The notes beneath the pieces are model-generated. The model had not been told where the DNA came from, ran no database searches, and saw only the letters and a program-made list of their open reading frames with translations. Below are positions 1 to 37,951 of a stretch of 64,000 nucleotides of DNA, in pieces. How positions within the stretch are numbered: the stretch's first letter is position 1; every line of letters begins with the position of its first letter. The position numbers and the translations under genes are program-made. Origin of the DNA: Prototheca cutis (Eukaryota > Chlorophyta > Trebouxiophyceae > Chlorellales > Chlorellaceae); contig BCIH01000015.1 in NCBI GenBank assembly GCA_002897115.2, forward strand, positions 175,827-239,826, given 5' to 3'.

Positions 1-2160
1 TTTTCACTCTGCAGGGCAATAGGAAGGTGGACCACCGCAATGATGGACCACCTCCGGGGCTGTTTTCCCTTCCCGGGCCAAGGAGCCCAGAGCTCCTTGC
101 CCCGGGAAGGGAGCCCCCAGGGCTTCGACCCCCAGGGCTGCTTTCCCTTGCCGGGGGAGGGAAGGAGCACCGGGGGTTCCGACCCCCGTTTGGAAGGCTA
201 TAACCCCCCATGATGGATGGATGGATGTCCATCAGCACTGCGCCCTTGGGCGCTGGAAGTGCTCCAGCCGTTGGCNGGTCTTCCGCAGAGTCTGCACGAT
301 GTGCTTCATGTTCAGACATGCCATCAAGTCTCTGTTCCAGAGATGATGCTCGCCGTTCGGGGTGTGGTAGTCTTTGTCAGTGCAGCACCAGCTGATGGCA
401 CACCACCGTGAGAGTCTGATCCCTCTTGATCTCGCGGCGACCTGGCATCAGCAGTGTTCCCCAGATGAACGCCAAGTTGGCCGCGAATGAGCCAAGCTTG
501 CTGTCCTTCAGGAACTGCTTCGCAACGATGTAGTTGTCCATCTGCACCGCCCCAGGCACATGCGAAATGTGCATGGGGATTGCGCGGAACGTGCGCACTC
601 CCTCCTCGACGCGGAAGCGGGACATCGCGATCATCGCTCGAACGTGCTCCCTCGGGTTGACCTTGGAGTCGTAGTAAAAGGTGCCCTTTTCGAAGCGGTA
701 ACCCGGGGGGTAGGCGTTGCGCAAGAGCTGCAGCAGCCGGTCGTATTTTGCCTGCTGCGTGGCGTCCATTCCCTCCACGGTCGCCTCCAGGCGCCCGAGC
801 GCCTCCTTGATGCGCCTTGCGGGCCCGTTGACCTCCTGATCGCACGTCTCGTTGCGCCTCTTGCGATCCCAGCCCTCCCTGCGCGCTCGCGCATCCACCT
901 CCTTCCGGCGGTCCTTGACGCTGAGGATCAGGTTCATGGTGCCCCGAATGTGCTCGCCAAAGTGCTTGCGAACATTGGCCTCCACCGCCGCGCACTGTGT
1001 TTCCCCCCAGTACTTGGCATCCTGCACGTCAAGGAGCAGCCAGCTCGTCTACCACGTGGTCTGGGCCATTGCGTGCCAACCCATCACAGACAATCCTGCA
1101 TTCAGCCCGCGACGCAAGCAACACATGCAACCACAACTCAATCAGTCACCTGGTTCGGTGCGTGGTAGAACTGCCGCCGCTCGTACGCAGTCGCCTGCTG
1201 GAACGTGGGCCAGGACCTCTGGAAACGGGCACGGAAGTACGTCGTTTCGTCGTTGCGTGTTTTCCTCCTAGGGTAGCTGACCATGTAAAGGAAGGCCTCG
1301 GCAAAGAACCTGGGACAGACGAACCGCGTTGCAAAGTCCGCACTGCCCGCCTCGTCCTCCTCAAGCAACACGAGCGCGGCAAAGTGCGAGGCGTGCTGCT
1401 TCACGGGATGCATCTTTTGGACATACTGCTCCAGAGGCCGATGGAACAGGCGCTTCCAGGTCGCCAGCACCGACGCCTTGGCGGCCGTAAAGACGCCCTT
1501 GAGCGCCTCCCGACCGCGGCCCAAAAGTCGCGGTCCATCNACCTTGCAATCCTGCCTGCTGTAACAATGGGTGGATGGATTGGGCAGGCCGGCGTGAAGT
1601 CTCCCACCTTCGGCACCTTCAGTTGGGGGACCGTTAGAATGCCAACGCGCACGGGACAGCGCCGCCTTCCAGAACGGGAACTCACGAGCTGATGTCGACC
1701 TGGCTCTCCTATTCGTCCAGAAGACCGTGGGACCTGCGCTGCCAGGTCGCACGCACCGACGCCTTGACGGTGGTCATGGCGTTTTGGTGCACCTCCCGCC
1801 CGCTACCCCAAAAGTCGCGGGCCATTCGCTTTGCACCCGTTATTGTAATGGGTGCCTGAAATGGGCAGGTCAGCAGGGAATCCCCGTATGTTAGACCGGG
1901 TTCCCACTGGCCGACCCGCCTCGGGAGACGCAGGGCCCTTGCTAGGGGGTCGATGTGTAGGACCTTTCTCCTTGCACGACCTGTCCTGCCAAGAAGGAAC
2001 GAAACCCATTCTCTGAGCGACGCGGCCAGGGAATGCGGTCCAACAGGCATTTCGAGAGACATGCCCTTGCTGTGCAGGTGGGAGTCGATGGATCTCGATA
2101 AGGTTTCATCATTTTTGCCCTGCATTCTACAGCGCGCTCACGCTCGCACCGCAGCGTATA
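1..2160 (-). mobile_element. Decayed Fanzor (eukaryotic TnpB-like) element, copy 1
   Basis: The element reads on the minus strand and runs off the left edge of the window. Its parts share two blocks of near identity with a shorter copy at about 41.76-42.26 kb: a 5' block (here about 2125-1960) and a 3' block (about 410-1). The 3' block encodes the Fanzor-type C-terminal motif and ends in a GC-rich stretch with inverted repeats (GGTGGTCC / GGACCACC, about 20-60) and an ATGG tandem repeat (about 211-226). Between the blocks lies coding sequence resembling the Fanzor N-terminus, with an internal imperfect duplication (about 1452-1600 and 1738-1880). Left boundary is unknown; the right boundary is set only by where similarity to copy 2 stops. 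Confidence 0.65.
232..1752 (-). pseudogene. Fanzor-like nuclease remnant lacking the RuvC core
   Basis: Fanzors are eukaryotic RNA-guided nucleases related to TnpB. Readable pieces on the minus strand are an N-terminal part (about 1752-1151, with a good GTGACT donor after 1151), an acceptor before 1021, then a 200-residue segment whose motif YDSKVNPREHV followed by FRAIPMHISHVPG matches the conserved segment that precedes the nuclease domain in Fanzor1 proteins. After that the reading jumps at about 405-430 into a different frame that gives WNRDLMACLNM and ends at the stop at 232, the last catalytic motif of TnpB/Fanzor. The region that should hold RuvC-I (DPG) and RuvC-II (E) is missing at this junction, and copy 2 joins the same 3' block. 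N bases at 275 and 1540 obscure details. Non-functional as a nuclease, by inference. Confidence 0.6.
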
Positions 2161-5682: not shown

Positions 5683-8600
5683 ATGAGGGCACGAGAGCGG
5701 CCAGAGATGGGCCGGACGGCCCATCGATGGTTCGTCTTGGTGCTTGCAACCACGCTGCTCGGAAGCGCGGTTGTGGCTTCGAACTCGAGCGAATGCAGCT
5801 TCATTCAGTCATCCCCAAGATATGCAGCTCTGAGAGGCGAGATTAAGCTCACCGGCGTGACGCAGAGCGAGCTGCTGGGAGATGCCATGGTCACCGCGCT
5901 GGAGACCGGGCTCGGGGTGGCGTCTTGCGCCATCCAGCTCAGCACGGGCAGCTCCTGCGACACCGCCACCGCCTCCGCGTCATGCTCCAGTCCTTTTTAC
6001 GTGTGCGGCGACCAAATCGTGGACGCATCCCTTTACGAGCTGGCCATGGCCGGGACCTGCACCTCTGGCACCGACTCTGTCTCCACAAGCGCGGGGTGCG
6101 CCCTGCTGGCACAGGCCCCCGATCTCTTGGCTGCGGTGCAGGCCGACGAGTGCCAGACCGGCTGCATCCTCACTGAGACGGGCCAGGTCCTGGGAGCGGC
6201 CGAAAATGCTACCCTGATTGATGATTCCACTGCAAGCTGCAGCGCCTTTGAGATTCAACTCCTTGCTTCAGATGCCGAGCAAGCGGCAGCACTGGGGACC
6301 ACCCTGACCAGCGCCTCCACGTCGGCCGCGCTCGTCGGCGCTGTCGCTCCCTTTGCCACCCGGTCCACCCAGGTCGACGCCTCTGTGACCAGTATGTGCT
6401 TGTTTTGACGTGGGTGCTGGGGCATCGGAAGGCATGCTGCGTTGAGGGACGCGTGGGGCCAGGCTCTATTGACACTGCCTTGCCAGCCAGCTACCCACAC
6501 AAACCTTCATCCACCCTTCTCCCTTTCCTCCCCAGAAATCATCACCATGGTCGGGTTTGGCTCGTTCCCTCCCCCTCCCCCTCCCCCAAGTCCCCCACCC
6601 CCACCGTGCGTCGGAGATGGGCGCAGAGGTGTTGTCCTGCGTGTCACTGGATTCACTGCAGTGGAGGAGCATGGAAAACAGTTTCATCGCACAGTATCCG
6701 TTCCAACTTGTCCTCCTCCCCCCTCCTAAACCCTGACGATCGACAGGCCGCCAAGCCCACCGCCGCCCATGTTCCCTCTCGTGCCTGCTCCCTCACCCCC
6801 GCCACCCTCCCCGAGCGGAAGTAACTCGTCGACTTCTGGTGCTCACGTGGTCCTGGGCTCCTGGGGCGACTGCATCGGCTCGTGCGGGACAGGTGTCCAG
6901 TCTCGGACCGCGACATGCACAGCCCTCGATGGCAGCATCCTCCCACTGGCCGACTGCTCCACCTCACAGTCCTCTCTGACCCTGCTGCAGTCATGCACGT
7001 ACGTTTTGCTTGGTGGTTGTTATTCTTTAGAGTACTGTTATGTTTCTTGGACTTTTGCATGTGCACTGTCCCCTTGGGTTGATTTTCCGTCACGATGACC
7101 TCAATTCTTGGCAACTGGCAGCCGGTGTGGTGGCACCAGGCAGGGCCAACCTCCCATGCACAACCTCATAATAACCACAGGGTGAACGTGACGTGTTCGG
7201 AGCCTCACTGGGAGTACGGAGTCTGGTCTGCATGCAGTGCCGAGTGCGGCGGTGGACTGGCCAACCGGACGGCGGCCTGCGTCGCCAATGGCACGGCCCT
7301 GGACGCCGAGTGGTGCGCTGCTTCGGCAGCGCAAACTTCCCAGTCGTGCAACGTGGCGCCCTGCTCAGCACGCGTCTGGTCCGTGGGGTCCTGGGGTGCC
7401 TGCAGCGTTTCCTGTGGAGGCGGCACCCAGTCACGGACGGTCCAATGCCGTGACGTGGCCACGGGCGCGATGGTCGGAGCCAGTGCATGCAGCGCCTCTT
7501 CTCGGCCCGTCTCGACCCAGACCTGCGGCACGACTGCCTGTGCCAGCTGTGCTGCAGCCACCTGCGTCCATGGCAGTTGTTCGCTTGAAAGCGCCGGCAG
7601 CACCGCCTCGTCGCCCAGCGGCGAGGGAGAGGCGCCGGAAACTGATGAAGGAGGTCAACAAACCTCTGTTGCCGCCCTGTGTTCCTGCGACAGTGGCTGG
7701 ACGGGCAGTCGGTGTGAGGTACCGACAGACTGTGCATCGGGCATGGTGTCTTCCAACGGCACGTGCTGCGCATCCGGCCTGGTATCTGCCACCGGTTCCT
7801 GCTGCGGACAAGGTGCTTCGCTGGATGCATCCGGCGCGTGCTGCCCCGCCGAGTCATCGCTTGATGCGTGTGGCGTGTGTGGCGGCAACGCCACGGTCGT
7901 CGATTCAACGGGCGCATGCTGCGCTGGGGTGTTGGATGCCGCAGGTCTGTGTTGTACTGCCGAAATGGGTGTCGACGACTGCGGCGTCTGTGGCGGTCTG
8001 GGCACCACCTGTGCGGTGTCCATGTCGCTCAGGCTTTCCGTGCCCTCGGACCTCGTCAGCGCCGACGGCGTCCTGGCCGAACCCATTGCCGAGTACATCG
8101 ACGAGTTGGGCGCTGCGGCGGGCTTCGAAAACATCACCCGAGGGAGCGGGGGCAGTGGTGGGGGGGNGTCCCTGTCGCTCAACGGTACCAGCAACGACGG
8201 TGATGGTACCACTGATAATGCAACCACCACCACGACACAGGGCCCCCCACCCCCGCCGCCAGCTGGCAGCGGTGGGCGGAGGGCACTTTTGACGAGCACT
8301 CCTCCCCCCGCTGCGCCCGGTCCCGAAGCTTCTGCCACAACTGTGGTTGTTTCCGCGCGCTTCAACGTGACGGCGGACGCTCAGGCCAACGCCAGCGTCC
8401 CTTTTTCAGCGGCCTGGCTGCAGTCTGCGCTGGCCGATGCGGCTGCTGGAGGCTCGTCTTCGTCGACCGGCAACGTGTCGTCATCAGGGATTTCCTCGCT
8501 TCCAGGCGGTTCTGCGACGGCCACGGCGATCTGCGGCAACGGCGTGTGTGAACTGGGCGAAATCGGTTCCCCCGGGTCAAACGCCACAGGCTCTTGCCCC

Positions 8601-11600
8601 GCCGATTGTCCGTTGTCCACGCCTGCAGGCTGCCCCGCCGCGGGCTGCGGCGCGGGTGTCTGTGACGCAACGGCCGGCGCGTGCCGCTGTCGCGTGGGCT
8701 ACACCGGCGACGCCTGCAGTGACTGCGCTGATGGTTTTTCGGCAAACTCGGAGGGCGCGTGCTCTGGTGATGTCGCAGCCATGGGCCTGCTTTCCCAGAC
8801 GGCCTTTGCCAGTCCGCCGCCGCCACCACCTCCCCCTGCGACGCTGGCACCGTCCCCGGGCATTGGCCCCGGCCAAGCCCCCGGACCCGGCCCTGATGTC
8901 GCTACAACCAGTCCGCCGCCACCCCCATCTCCCTCGGACCAGCTGGACGGGGAGCCGTCCGGCGACGGGAACAAGCTGGGCGTGATTCTGGGGTCGGTCT
9001 TTGGCGTGCTGGCGGCCGTGATCGTCGCCGGCGCAGGGTTCTGGATCCTGGCACGCCGCCGGCGCAACAACCGTGCGCTGCGTCGGTGGGCAGCAGACAC
9101 ACCCGGCTCGACGTCGTGGTCTTCTGGCGATGACAGCGGGGGAGCCGCCTGGCGTGATGTCGAGGGTGGCGGCGGCGGCCCGCCCAGCCCCAGCACCGCG
9201 CTGCGGGACGCCAAGCGCAAGGAGATGTCTTTGCGTCAGAAATACGGGACCTCCTCCGCCTCCAACGCCGGCAGTGCCGGGACTGGGAGGGAGGCTGACG
9301 CCATCGTGGCGGTGCACTGTGGCTCGATCGGAAATGGTGGCGCCAACAAGGGCGGCGCTTCTGATGGTCACCCCGCCGGCGACGATGACGCCAGCCCCAA
9401 CAACAATAATAATGCTGCTGGGGACATCCGGCGGGCGACGACGCTGCTGCCACAGGTGCAGCCCGTGTCAGAGGGGCCCTATTATAATTCGGCACTGTAC
9501 CAGTGCGAGTCGAGCGCTTCGCACGGGCCCAGCCTGGACGCTTCATCAGACGCCCGGCGATGCAGACCCGTCGCCGCGGGCTCCACGACGATGGTGTCCC
9601 AGACCCCGGCGAGGGGCGGTGAAGCCGCGCCACGACCCCTGTCCTCCAGCGACCGCTCCAGCGCCTCTTCGTCGTCGAATGCCGGCGGGCAGCGAGGGGC
9701 AGTGCGTTCGGGGGCTGTCGCTGTCGTCGCCGCAGCCACCAATGGTGGTAGCACTGCGAGTGCCATCTCACAGTCGGCCCCAGCCCACCCACAACGCCCG
9801 GGGCCATTCGCTGCCGAGGAAAGCGAGGCAACATGGGCAACGGACGGCGAGAGCGCAGCGGCACGGGCGAGTCTGGCGGTGTGCCCCAGGTCTGTGGCCC
9901 CACAGGCCTCGGACGCTGCTGGGCCTTGGATGTCAGGCTTTGGAGACCACGGCATGATGGCCATGGTCGACGGACAGCAGCAGCAGCAGTACCGACAAGC
10001 GGTCTTGGCGGCGCATGCCCCCTCGCCGGCAGACCCCCATGCCCGTCTGTTCCACAATCCAGCGTTTGGCTATGCACCCACGCCTTCCCAAATGGGGGTA
10101 GGAATGACGGGCGGCGATGCTGCTGGGGAAGGTGCAGTCGCTGGTGCAGTTGACAGCAAGACACCCGCTGCGGCTCCACCTCAGCCTGCATCTCGACCGA
10201 TGGGTCTTTACACGGGCATGGCCGTGCGCCGTGCGCGGCTGGCAGCGCTGCGGGAGGACGAGGCGTTTGTCCCCGGCGAGCACGACGGGGATGATGGCGG
10301 TGCGGAGGAAGAAGAGGAGGATGGTGCCAGCTCTGCGGGCGGCTCGGCCCATATGTGGTGAGCGAACGAGGGTGCCGCTGCTTGGGACGGAGCTGTTGCA
10401 TTTTGCGTCTATTTGGGGGGGGGGCCATCTATTCAGGCTGTCGATTCCCCTGTGTAAATATCCCACCGAAATAAAATTCGATATCCACCGACATGGTGCC
10501 ACTGTCTGTCTGCGCAGGCGCGACAACCCCGTGGCTGCAGAGCTGGTGCCGCCACCACGGTTCACGCCCGCGGCAGGCCTGGGACGACTGCCTGCTTCCG
10601 AGCAGAACCCAGAAGGCAACGGTCGCGGTGACCGGGGTCCTTCCCCAGCCCTGAGCCTGGCCAGTCTGGGCAGCGTACTTCGGGCAGCGCCACCCCTGTC
10701 CCTGGGCAGTGCCGCGACCGATGCCTTTGGCACACGCAGTCTGGGCACGGGCCTGACCAGCGGTCCTCATGCCGACCACGAAGCCTCGGTGGGGTACTAC
10801 CGCAGCGGCGGTGGTGACGGTGGGGGTGTTGAGGTGTCCACGGCGAACGGCGCTGTCCCTGCGGCGGCTGTCACGACTCGTGGCCGACCCGACTCGGCAC
10901 AGTCTGGCCTCACCGAAGAAGAGGAAGAGGGACAAGACGACAATGTGTACGCCGAGCTGGCGCTCCCTGCGGTGGGCGTCTTTGCCAGCGCAGCACCCAG
11001 CCAGACTGGAAGCGGAAGTGGCAGCGGCAGTGGTGGCTTGCCTCGCCCCGCGGGCGTGCCGCGCCTGTCCCTGGCCGGCATTTCTGGTGCTACTGGTGGT
11101 GCTGCTGGTGCTGGCCGCGAGCCGCAGCAGTCCCCACCGTCTGTGGCGGGTCGGCAGGTATGGCCTCCAGTTGTGTGCGCTTTGGGGGCCGGGTACTTGG
11201 AGGCACAACAGAATTTTCTGTCCAACGTGCAATGGATGATCGTGTTTTCCGCAACGCAACTTTGTCACTCATGTACCGCCTCGCGCATCACCCACCATCA
11301 AACAGCAGCAGCAGAGCGAGACACCTGGAGTCTCCGGGGGGCCCGCGCATTCGTCCCCATGGCCAGTCTCGACGGCCAGCGGGTCGAGCCCCGGTGGCGG
11401 GGCGTCCAGCACCGACGTGCGCAGCAGCCTGGCAGGCGGTCTGCGCCGTCTCCTCTCGCCGTTCATGGGCGCAAAGTGCGTCCAAGGGCTGATGGTGGTG
11501 GTGACAGCGTTTTGGGGGGAGAAGGCGAGGGAGTGCTCTAATGGGCATTCTGACGGCTACAGTGAAGAGACCAGCAGACTCGTATGCCCACCACAGATCG

Positions 11601-12095: not shown

Positions 12096-12644
12096 TTCTG
12101 AGGGCATTGGTTCGGGGCGGGGGNGACAGCTCAGTCATCATCCAGACACCGGTCAAACGACCGCTGGCACCACTCCCCCGCCAAGTCCCAATACCTCCCC
12201 ATGCATTCACATCGAAACGCGCATTCTTCGTGCATGTGCACACACAGCGACCTGCAGCCTTGCCGAGACCGTGTGTTACCCGTGATGACGTAATGACTGC
12301 CCTGAAACACGGGCCGGGGGCACTCTCCACTCCGAGAGCCCAGTCCTGGCCCCCGGGTTTTGAGTTTTTCGTTGTGGGAGTCTGTCCCGCCGTTGCACTG
12401 TCCAGCCCACGACCGACGATCAGCTTCGCCCACTCATCCTTGCTCCTGTCTGATGATTTCCGATGGACGTGTAAAATGGCCATGACCATGGTACTGTACC
12501 TGTGCAGCCTGCCCTGATAGTACTATGGTTGACACATCATGGAAAGGAAAGGCCCTGCACCCAGTCTGACACATGCATGCACGGGAAAAGAAAATGTAAG
12601 ACAGGTGCAAGCACAAAAAGCAAAAAAGTTGTCGACGAGGCGTA
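12096..12644. other. Intergenic, no gene seen
   Basis: 3' flank of the thrombospondin-repeat gene. It contains TGTAA at about 12469 (a chlorophyte-type polyadenylation signal) and a T6 run on the minus strand at 12627-12622 that serves the adjacent tRNA gene. No supported ORF. Confidence 0.5.
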
Positions 12645-12727
12645 TGAGAGCCGTGTATACTAACCANCTATACGATATGCGAAGCGGTGTTTTTCGCATA
12701 CGGGGACTCGAACCCCGGTCCCACGGG
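12645..12727 (-). tRNA. trnE-CTC: Circularly permuted tRNA-Glu (CTC)
   Basis: Minus strand. The 3' half comes first (12727-12693): anticodon-stem strand CCGTG, a 4-nt variable loop, T-arm CGGGG/TTCGAGT/CCCCG, acceptor strand TATGCGA and discriminator A. A 10-nt spacer (12692-12683) follows, then the 5' half (12682-12645): acceptor strand TCGCATA, a D-arm with one N, and anticodon strand CACGG. The two acceptor strands pair over 7 bp and the anticodon strands over 5 bp. Joining 37 to 38 gives loop CTCTCAC, canonical for tRNA-Glu with anticodon CTC (12648-12646). A T6 Pol III terminator lies about 18 nt past the 5' half. The flanks give only a weak 4-bp helix (TACG with CGTG). The order of halves is directly visible; function is inferred. 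Confidence 0.88.
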
Positions 12728-13179
12728 AGATCACGTAATCCTACGCAACCCTAGGATCCTCGGTTTGGATGTCTGGGCGAGAGATTTCGCCCTTAATATT
12801 CTGCTGATGTCCAATAGATTGGGGCAGTGAGAGTGCCGCAACGACAACGACTGGCAGAACATCGCAAAGGCCTCCATGTTTTTATATTACAGATTTTTAC
12901 AGTTGACCCAAGCTCCTGTTGGCTCGAAATCCGTCTGCACTTTTCTGCTGGGCCCTGTTCCGCGAGGGGTCCCTCGGAGCTTCGACACCAGAGCTGCATT
13001 GGGCACGCAGTGGCTGATTATCGGGACACCCGGGCATTGATATCGGTTCATCTCCCTCCTAATATATCTGGGTACCCCCCCTTGCGGGCGTAGATTGACG
13101 CGGGGCCAGCTTGGCCTCGTGGGCGATCTTGCCGAGGCGGCAACACTGATCCGAGCATTTGGAAGTGCCTGTCTCCAGT
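12728..13179. other. Intergenic, no gene seen
   Basis: Upstream of POLD4 and of the minus-strand tRNA-Glu gene, so it should contain both promoters. No motif I can call with confidence. Confidence 0.4.
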
Positions 13180-17979: not shown

Positions 17980-18087
17980 ATGCACTCTCCTTTACCGGAG
18001 GCCCAGGTTCGAACCCTGGTGCGGGCAATCTCCGGGAATCCCCCCCCCCGCCCGTATGACGGAGTGGTCTAACGTGGTGCACTTAAG
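17980..18087 (+). tRNA. trnL-TAA: Circularly permuted tRNA-Leu (TAA)
   Basis: The 3' half comes first (17980-18027): anticodon-stem strand TGCAC, a class II variable arm (CTCC/GGAG), T-arm CCAGG/TTCGAAC/CCTGG, acceptor strand TGCGGGC and discriminator A. A 22-nt spacer (18028-18049) includes a C10 run. The 5' half (18050-18087) follows: acceptor GCCCGTA, a D-arm, anticodon strand GTGCA and loop start CTTAAG. The acceptor strands pair over 7 bp (one G-U) and the anticodon strands over 5 bp. The rejoined loop CTTAAGA contains anticodon TAA (18084-18086). Leader ATGA (17975-17978) can pair with trailer TCGT (18088-18091), a 4-bp helix as expected for a bulge-helix-bulge splice site. T4 terminator at 18093-18096. 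Confidence 0.93.
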
Positions 18088-37609: not shown

Positions 37610-37838
37610 ACCTGTAGCTGCTGCCTACTCGCAGCCCGATGCCGCTCGCGCAGTCGTCAATAGAATACTACGGTGAAACCATGGCAAACACAGGACAATG
37701 CGCCTGTGAAGGGTATGCAGTCTGGTGTTGCGCACATGTATTTTGCAGCAGATCTCGGGGGGTCCCGGACGGAGACATACCGGCGGGCGGGAGATATACG
37801 GTGACAAATGGCGCTTTTTCAACAAGCATTAGCAGCTT

Positions 37839-37918
37839 CGGACCAGACCCGGGTTCGATTCCCGGCCAGCGCAACCTTCTGCGCGCTGGTGGTCTAGTGG
37901 TAGAATAGGTCCCTGCCA
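37839..37918 (+). tRNA. trnG-GCC: Circularly permuted tRNA-Gly (GCC)
   Basis: 3' half first (37839-37873): loop base C38, anticodon-stem strand GGACC, AGAC, T-arm CCGGG/TTCGATT/CCCGG, acceptor strand CCAGCGC, discriminator A. A 9-nt spacer (37874-37882) follows. 5' half (37883-37918): acceptor GCGCTGG, D-arm with TCTAGTGGTAGAATA, anticodon strand GGTCC, then CTGCCA. Acceptor (7 bp), anticodon (5 bp) and T stems (5 bp) all pair perfectly. The rejoined loop CTGCCAC is the canonical Gly-GCC loop, anticodon 37915-37917. Leader AGCAGC (37831-37836) pairs with trailer GCTGTT (37919-37924) over 6 bp (one G-U), leaving small bulges at both cut sites, as in a bulge-helix-bulge. T runs at 37928-37931, 37935-37939 and 37944-37951. 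Confidence 0.95.
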
Positions 37919-37951
37919 GCTGTTCCCTTTTGCCTTTTTGGCATTTTTTTT

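Follow-up and report, generated by a model that had tools for sequence, protein, structure and literature searches.

A permuted tRNA-Gly(GCC) gene with its junction at position 37/38, and further permuted tRNA genes, in Prototheca cutis

Organisation of the tRNA-Gly(GCC) locus

The window, by which we mean the whole 64,000-nt stretch of Prototheca cutis DNA analysed here, carries a permuted tRNA gene at 37831-37951, in which the 3′ half of tRNA-Gly(GCC) lies upstream of the 5′ half, both on the plus strand and separated by a short spacer. The elements of the locus, with the observations on which each assignment is based, are as follows.

37831..37838, plus strand: AGCAGC (37831-37836), which forms the leader side of the splice helix, then two bulge bases that precede the cut; sequence, pairing and fold
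37839..37873, plus strand: 3′ half of tRNA-Gly(GCC), positions 38-73; genome matches and rejoined cloverleaf
37874..37882, plus strand: 9-nt spacer ACCTTCTGC between positions 73 and 1; varies among four copies
37883..37918, plus strand: 5′ half of tRNA-Gly(GCC), positions 1-37; genome matches and rejoined cloverleaf
37919..37924, plus strand: trailer strand of the splice helix, GCTGTT; sequence and pairing
37928..37951, plus strand: T runs (T4, T5 and T8), likely an RNA polymerase III terminator; read from the sequence, with a random-position control

In tRNA numbering, position 38 falls at 37839, position 73 at 37873, position 1 at 37883 and position 37 at 37918. The original prediction had proposed a reversed order of halves, a junction between 37918 and 37839 and a 9-nt spacer; the order is borne out to the base, the junction involves the same bases as our 37/38 assignment, and the spacer is confirmed as 37874-37882. 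When rejoined, the halves give 71 nt that ARAGORN identifies as tRNA-Gly(GCC) with a full cloverleaf; U8, A14, G18G19, U33 and T54T55C56 can be read from the sequence, and the CCA end is not encoded. Neither ARAGORN nor Rfam at gathering scores reports a colinear tRNA in the 64,000-nt window, which holds three permuted genes (Gly, one Glu(CTC) and the Leu(TAA) described below), a result that serves as a warning for annotation.

The sequences flanking the two halves are able to pair, with AGCAGC and GCTGTT forming six pairs, one of which is G:U. For random flanks of the same composition the chance of the four innermost pairs is 2.1%, and that of all six 0.3%. A splice helix at the 37/38 cut had also been predicted; the 6-bp flank pairing stands, but the motif is relaxed and a central 4-bp helix was not found. 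The strict form (two 3-nt bulges and a central 4-bp helix) is absent from the Gly precursor and is not needed for membership of this gene class; the termini can adopt the bulge-helix-bulge arrangement in relaxed form, with a 3 by 6-nt internal loop separating the anticodon stem from the outer helix. The precursor has a cloverleaf-type fold at -37.7 kcal/mol compared with an unconstrained minimum of -38.9 kcal/mol, a difference of 1.2 kcal/mol; the T arm, acceptor stem and outer helix are retained in the minimum, in which the 3′ strand of the anticodon stem is paired elsewhere.

Copies of the Gly gene across the genome

The genome searched was the window's own assembly (19.9 Mb, 23 contigs). 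With the Gly locus as query, four genomic places were found (all candidates scored), and a query in mature order gave eight matches, all of 100% identity, half of them covering bases 1-36 and the other half bases 37-71. In every locus the 3′ half comes first, separated from the 5′ half by 9 nt in three loci and by 10 nt in the fourth, and no joined copy in mature order was found in the 19.9-Mb assembly. The absence of a colinear Gly(GCC) gene, proposed earlier as a check, thus holds for this assembly, which yielded only unjoined halves, four of each. The halves are identical at 71 of 71 bases across the four loci; the spacers differ, as do the flanks outside the leader:trailer helix.

Two permuted Gly genes stand in tandem at C13:122144-122539, minus strand (L003 1191-1586, minus), where the 5′ half of one and the 3′ half of the next lie in colinear order, 235 nt apart. 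ARAGORN reads this pair as a colinear Gly(GCC) gene with a 235-nt intron, and the arrangement illustrates how interconversion of tandem copies and permuted genes could come about.

Comparison of the four copies reveals that the outer leader:trailer helix is kept in each, with 91.7% of helix cells paired. Three of its six pairs are invariant, one has a one-sided change (C:G to U:G), one a two-sided change (G:U to U:A), and two copies lack the remaining pair. In register, 97.8% of the whole structure is paired; shifting it by 1 to 3 columns lowers this figure to 32.6-45.7%. The covariation is slight, the observed value being reached by 134 of 500 shuffles.

We consider it very improbable that the permuted Gly loci are non-functional and that the true colinear Gly(GCC) genes lie in assembly gaps. 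The assembly does contain N bases (1203 in a 200-kb sample, of 61.5% GC) and is possibly incomplete, and tRNA fragments do occur, as exemplified by an orphan tRNA-Phe 3′ half (L024); relics, however, would not keep 71 of 71 bases identical at four loci beside diverged spacers and, for the most part, diverged flanks, and the leader:trailer pairing and the T runs are also kept. Conservation of this kind indicates that the permuted tRNA-Gly(GCC) gene is very probably functional. A second possibility, that halves are joined between loci, or across the C13 tandem copies, without formation of a circle, would be permitted by the identity of the halves at all four loci and by the tandem, which would allow splicing across 235 nt. 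We regard this as highly unlikely, as each locus has a trailer that pairs with its own leader (in one copy with a change matched on both sides), the acceptor stem already binds both halves of one transcript, and a circle is the route taken in other algae (PMC3978253).

Further permuted genes and the colinear set

A covariance model for permuted tRNAs was built from ten training sequences, comprising eight colinear tRNAs rearranged in silico and two Gly genes. In the window it gave three matches at E up to 10, namely Gly, Glu(CTC) and Leu(TAA). The permutation-type search suggested with the original prediction recovered the Gly locus at 77.6 bits (E 3.4e-18), a score that is partly by construction because this gene is among the ten training sequences; a fairer test of the model is therefore provided by the families outside training, with Glu at 55.9 bits and Leu(TAA) at 27.8 bits in the window, and Gln at 23.2 bits. 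A control of 20 arbitrary 10-kb stretches (C1-C3, 200 kb), a sample in which ARAGORN found no colinear tRNA, yielded a single match with E no higher than 1 (L044, 13.6 bits), which was judged by eye to be due to chance.

The first set of loci contained 38 matches at E up to 1. Six rows represent the four Gly genes (two are counted twice, the extracts L003 and L004 overlapping) and one is Gln, whilst the other 31 are located on or beside colinear tRNAs and were set aside. A second listing of seven matches comprises four Glu, one Leu(TAA), the orphan Phe 3′ half and one weak match. The strongest set-aside match, a colinear tandem Asp-Pro pair (36.8 bits; L016, L018), mimics the permuted order and, with the ARAGORN reading of the C13 tandem, speaks for the Gly locus being a decayed or misassembled colinear tandem with its 3′ half from an upstream gene and its 5′ half from a downstream one, a reading we take to be almost certainly wrong, as ARAGORN and Rfam find no outer halves in the window, C15 has a single 5′ half and a single 3′ half of tRNA-Gly(GCC), and the same short-spacer order recurs at four loci with unrelated spacers and pairing flanks.

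Returning to permuted genes proper, at least 11 were found, representing four isoacceptors (Gly, four; Glu(CTC), four; Leu(TAA), one; Gln(CTG), two), and all 11 are read with a junction at 37/38. The original prediction for the Gly gene was silent about the Glu and Leu genes in the same window. The features outside the Gly locus are as follows.

12693..12727, minus strand: 3′ half of permuted tRNA-Glu(CTC); permuted model and reading, four genomic copies by genome search
12645..12682, minus strand: 5′ half of permuted tRNA-Glu(CTC), containing one N; permuted model and reading
12728..12762, minus strand: Glu leader, consisting of CGAGG, the hairpin ATCCTA/TAGGAT, CGTG and a bulge; copy comparison and structure test
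12636..12644, minus strand: Glu trailer TACGCCTCG, pairing with the leader; copy comparison and structure test
17980..18027, plus strand: 3′ half of permuted tRNA-Leu(TAA), with a long variable arm; permuted model and reading, single match by genome search
18050..18087, plus strand: 5′ half of permuted tRNA-Leu(TAA), after a 22-nt spacer (18028-18049); permuted model and reading
L012, about 258-371, minus strand, and L050, about 1511-1622, plus strand: permuted Gln(CTG) genes; model and reading

For Leu(TAA) the model reports a start at 17999; judging from the variable arm and the anticodon stem, we place it at 17980. Permuted Gln(CTG) is found near two colinear Leu(CAG) genes; the second Gln(CTG) gene has a diverged spacer, and its halves carry a single substitution, which turns an anticodon-stem U:G pair into C:G. 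The Gln spacers, of 41 and 39 nt, are the longest among the permuted genes found. In Leu(TAA) and both Gln genes, leader and trailer can, by eye, pair over at least 4 bp, at slightly different offsets.

About 35 nt of leader are conserved among the four Glu genes. The segments CGAGG and CGTG together form 9 bp with the trailer TACGCCTCG and enclose the ATCCTA/TAGGAT hairpin. Within this hairpin, the C4 copy has a two-sided change at the fifth pair (U:A to A:U); the C8 copy has a one-sided change at one pair and has lost the end pair. The nine leader:trailer pairs are invariant and therefore carry no covariation information, and 131 of 500 shuffles reach the covariation score observed for the structure. 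These comparisons give a hint, no more, that the Glu leader is structured.

Upstream of the permuted Glu gene on C8 there is an orphan tRNA-Phe 3′ half, followed by T runs (L024, about 1668-1730, minus strand). No Phe 5′ half was found in this 3.1-kb locus, and the orphan half is either a relic or part of a split gene.

A search with RF00005 gave 17 colinear matches at E up to 1, a lower bound because 63 of the 246 candidates were scored. These were assigned, by ARAGORN with one reread, to Leu(CAG) and Asp (three each), Lys(CTT), Arg(ACG) and Pro(AGG) (two each), and Phe, Arg(CCT), Met, Pro(CGG) and Leu(CAA) (one each). Gly, Glu, Gln and Leu(TAA) are absent from these 17, and the remaining missing isoacceptors need not be permuted. 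At L020 1501-1620, minus strand (C1), an ARAGORN call of Asp with a 628-nt intron was rejected, as the sequence reads as a tRNA-Pro(CGG) gene interrupted by an intron at 37/38. Probing the genome with plant tRNAs for Ala, Asn and Ser, a set without a positive control, gave no matches, and the permuted-Gly pattern had no matches in a collection of viral contigs, which is uninformative for this gene.

Proposed processing and relation to known permuted tRNA genes

In our reading, to which we give a probability of about 0.92, the locus is a functional nuclear tRNA-Gly(GCC) gene in circularly permuted form. Its 37/38 junction makes it type II in the review by Soma, and it belongs to a set of at least 11 permuted genes that cover four isoacceptors. 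The best inference is that its precursor is processed as in Cyanidioschyzon merolae. By this analogy, RNA polymerase III would transcribe the leader, 3′ half, spacer, 5′ half and trailer, stopping at the T runs, and a leader:trailer helix would form outside the anticodon stem. Cuts by the Sen2/Sen34 splicing endonuclease after position 37 and before position 38 would be followed by the joining of 37 to 38 by a tRNA ligase, and in the resulting circle the spacer would link the two ends of the acceptor stem; the spacer would be removed by RNase P and tRNase Z, and CCA subsequently added.

With respect to transcription, every one of the 11 permuted genes is followed by a run of at least four T residues that begins no more than 18 nt from position 37, compared with 5.7% of 20,000 random positions when the start is allowed within 30 nt. 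No TATA-like box is evident upstream of the 11 permuted genes, in which 10-nt bins reveal no distinct AT-rich position (AT of 0.39-0.55 per bin, versus 0.43-0.53 for the 17 colinear genes). A single match to the TFIIIC B-block family was obtained (E 3.5e-4; 5.2e-05 on the frame), for a family that also matches 8 of 14 prokaryote controls, four of them over the cut-off. Two PF01974 loci are present in the genome, one with its best match to Sen2 chains of solved complexes (E 3.1e-15) and the other to Sen34 (E 1.7e-10); to judge by these likenesses, both catalytic subunits of the splicing endonuclease are encoded. The Asp, Pro and Leu(CAA) genes have canonical 37/38 introns, which would be other substrates of this enzyme.

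Permuted tRNA genes are rare, but they are already known both as a kind and from this lineage. By 2014, 34 had been reported, from six algae and one archaeon, including 11 from C. merolae, and the 37/38 type and the circular RNA had been described (PMC3978253). The C. merolae genes (Soma 2007, via PMC3978253) resemble those described here in having the 3′ half first, the 37/38 type among others, pairing termini and a T run after the gene. C. merolae differs in being a red alga, with 11 genes, junctions at four positions and introns in some genes, and has an upstream TATA-like box, of which none is clear here; its circular RNA has been shown (PMC3978253). Here, in contrast, only 37/38 junctions were seen, and the families are mostly multi-copy. 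Ostreococcus, Micromonas and the chlorarachniophyte nucleomorphs (Maruyama 2010, via PMC3978253, PMC4494063) are of the green lineage, with 37/38 as the commonest type; the nucleomorph genes are Ser (PMC4494063), and Ostreococcus and Micromonas, unlike the present host, are prasinophytes.

The original prediction knew of no case from a Chlorella-like alga, a novelty claim that is out of date because permuted tRNA genes were reported in 2025 from the trebouxiophyte Auxenochlorella UTEX 250-A (Plant Cell; PMC12636532). That nuclear genome belongs to the same group as the one studied here, and in it a colinear predictor gave an incomplete set, permuted genes then being detected; Auxenochlorella is photosynthetic, and the likeness is one of gene kind (PMC12636532). 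For P. wickerhamii, 64 tRNA genes were listed using tRNAscan, and the term 'permuted' does not occur in that paper (PMC7941945). In literature lying outside most subscription journals we found no report of a permuted tRNA from a Prototheca, and literature on Prototheca, Helicosporidium, Coccomyxa, Chlorella and Trebouxiophyceae yielded, for the lineage, only the Auxenochlorella paper or its preprint; the remaining papers dealt with nucleomorphs and with red algae, the latter through a cited reference alone.

The host is probably colourless, since no light-harvesting domain was found: the chlorophyll a/b-binding family had no match in six frames, in a search whose sole detected control was a cyanobacterium. 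The range of permuted tRNA genes now includes a probably non-photosynthetic member of the Auxenochlorella-Prototheca group. The families of which every copy found is permuted, with drifting spacers and unchanging halves, offer a naturally occurring test of which flanking bases are required by the splicing machinery; they and the possibly structured Glu leader merit further study. We tentatively propose, as a conjecture that may well prove wrong, that several multi-copy tRNA families exist in permuted form alone, that permuted genes rather than colinear ancestors were copied round the genome, that the full count exceeds the 11 of C. merolae, and that the partly covarying, structured Glu leader provides the cutting and circularisation steps with an extra recognition element.

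Elsewhere in the window, a 1088-aa open frame at 7095-10361 (plus strand) has the likeness of a thrombospondin-type (ADAMTS-like) repeat protein; among the best 120 of 196 matches, its closest relative is from Auxenochlorella protothecoides, at 46% identity.
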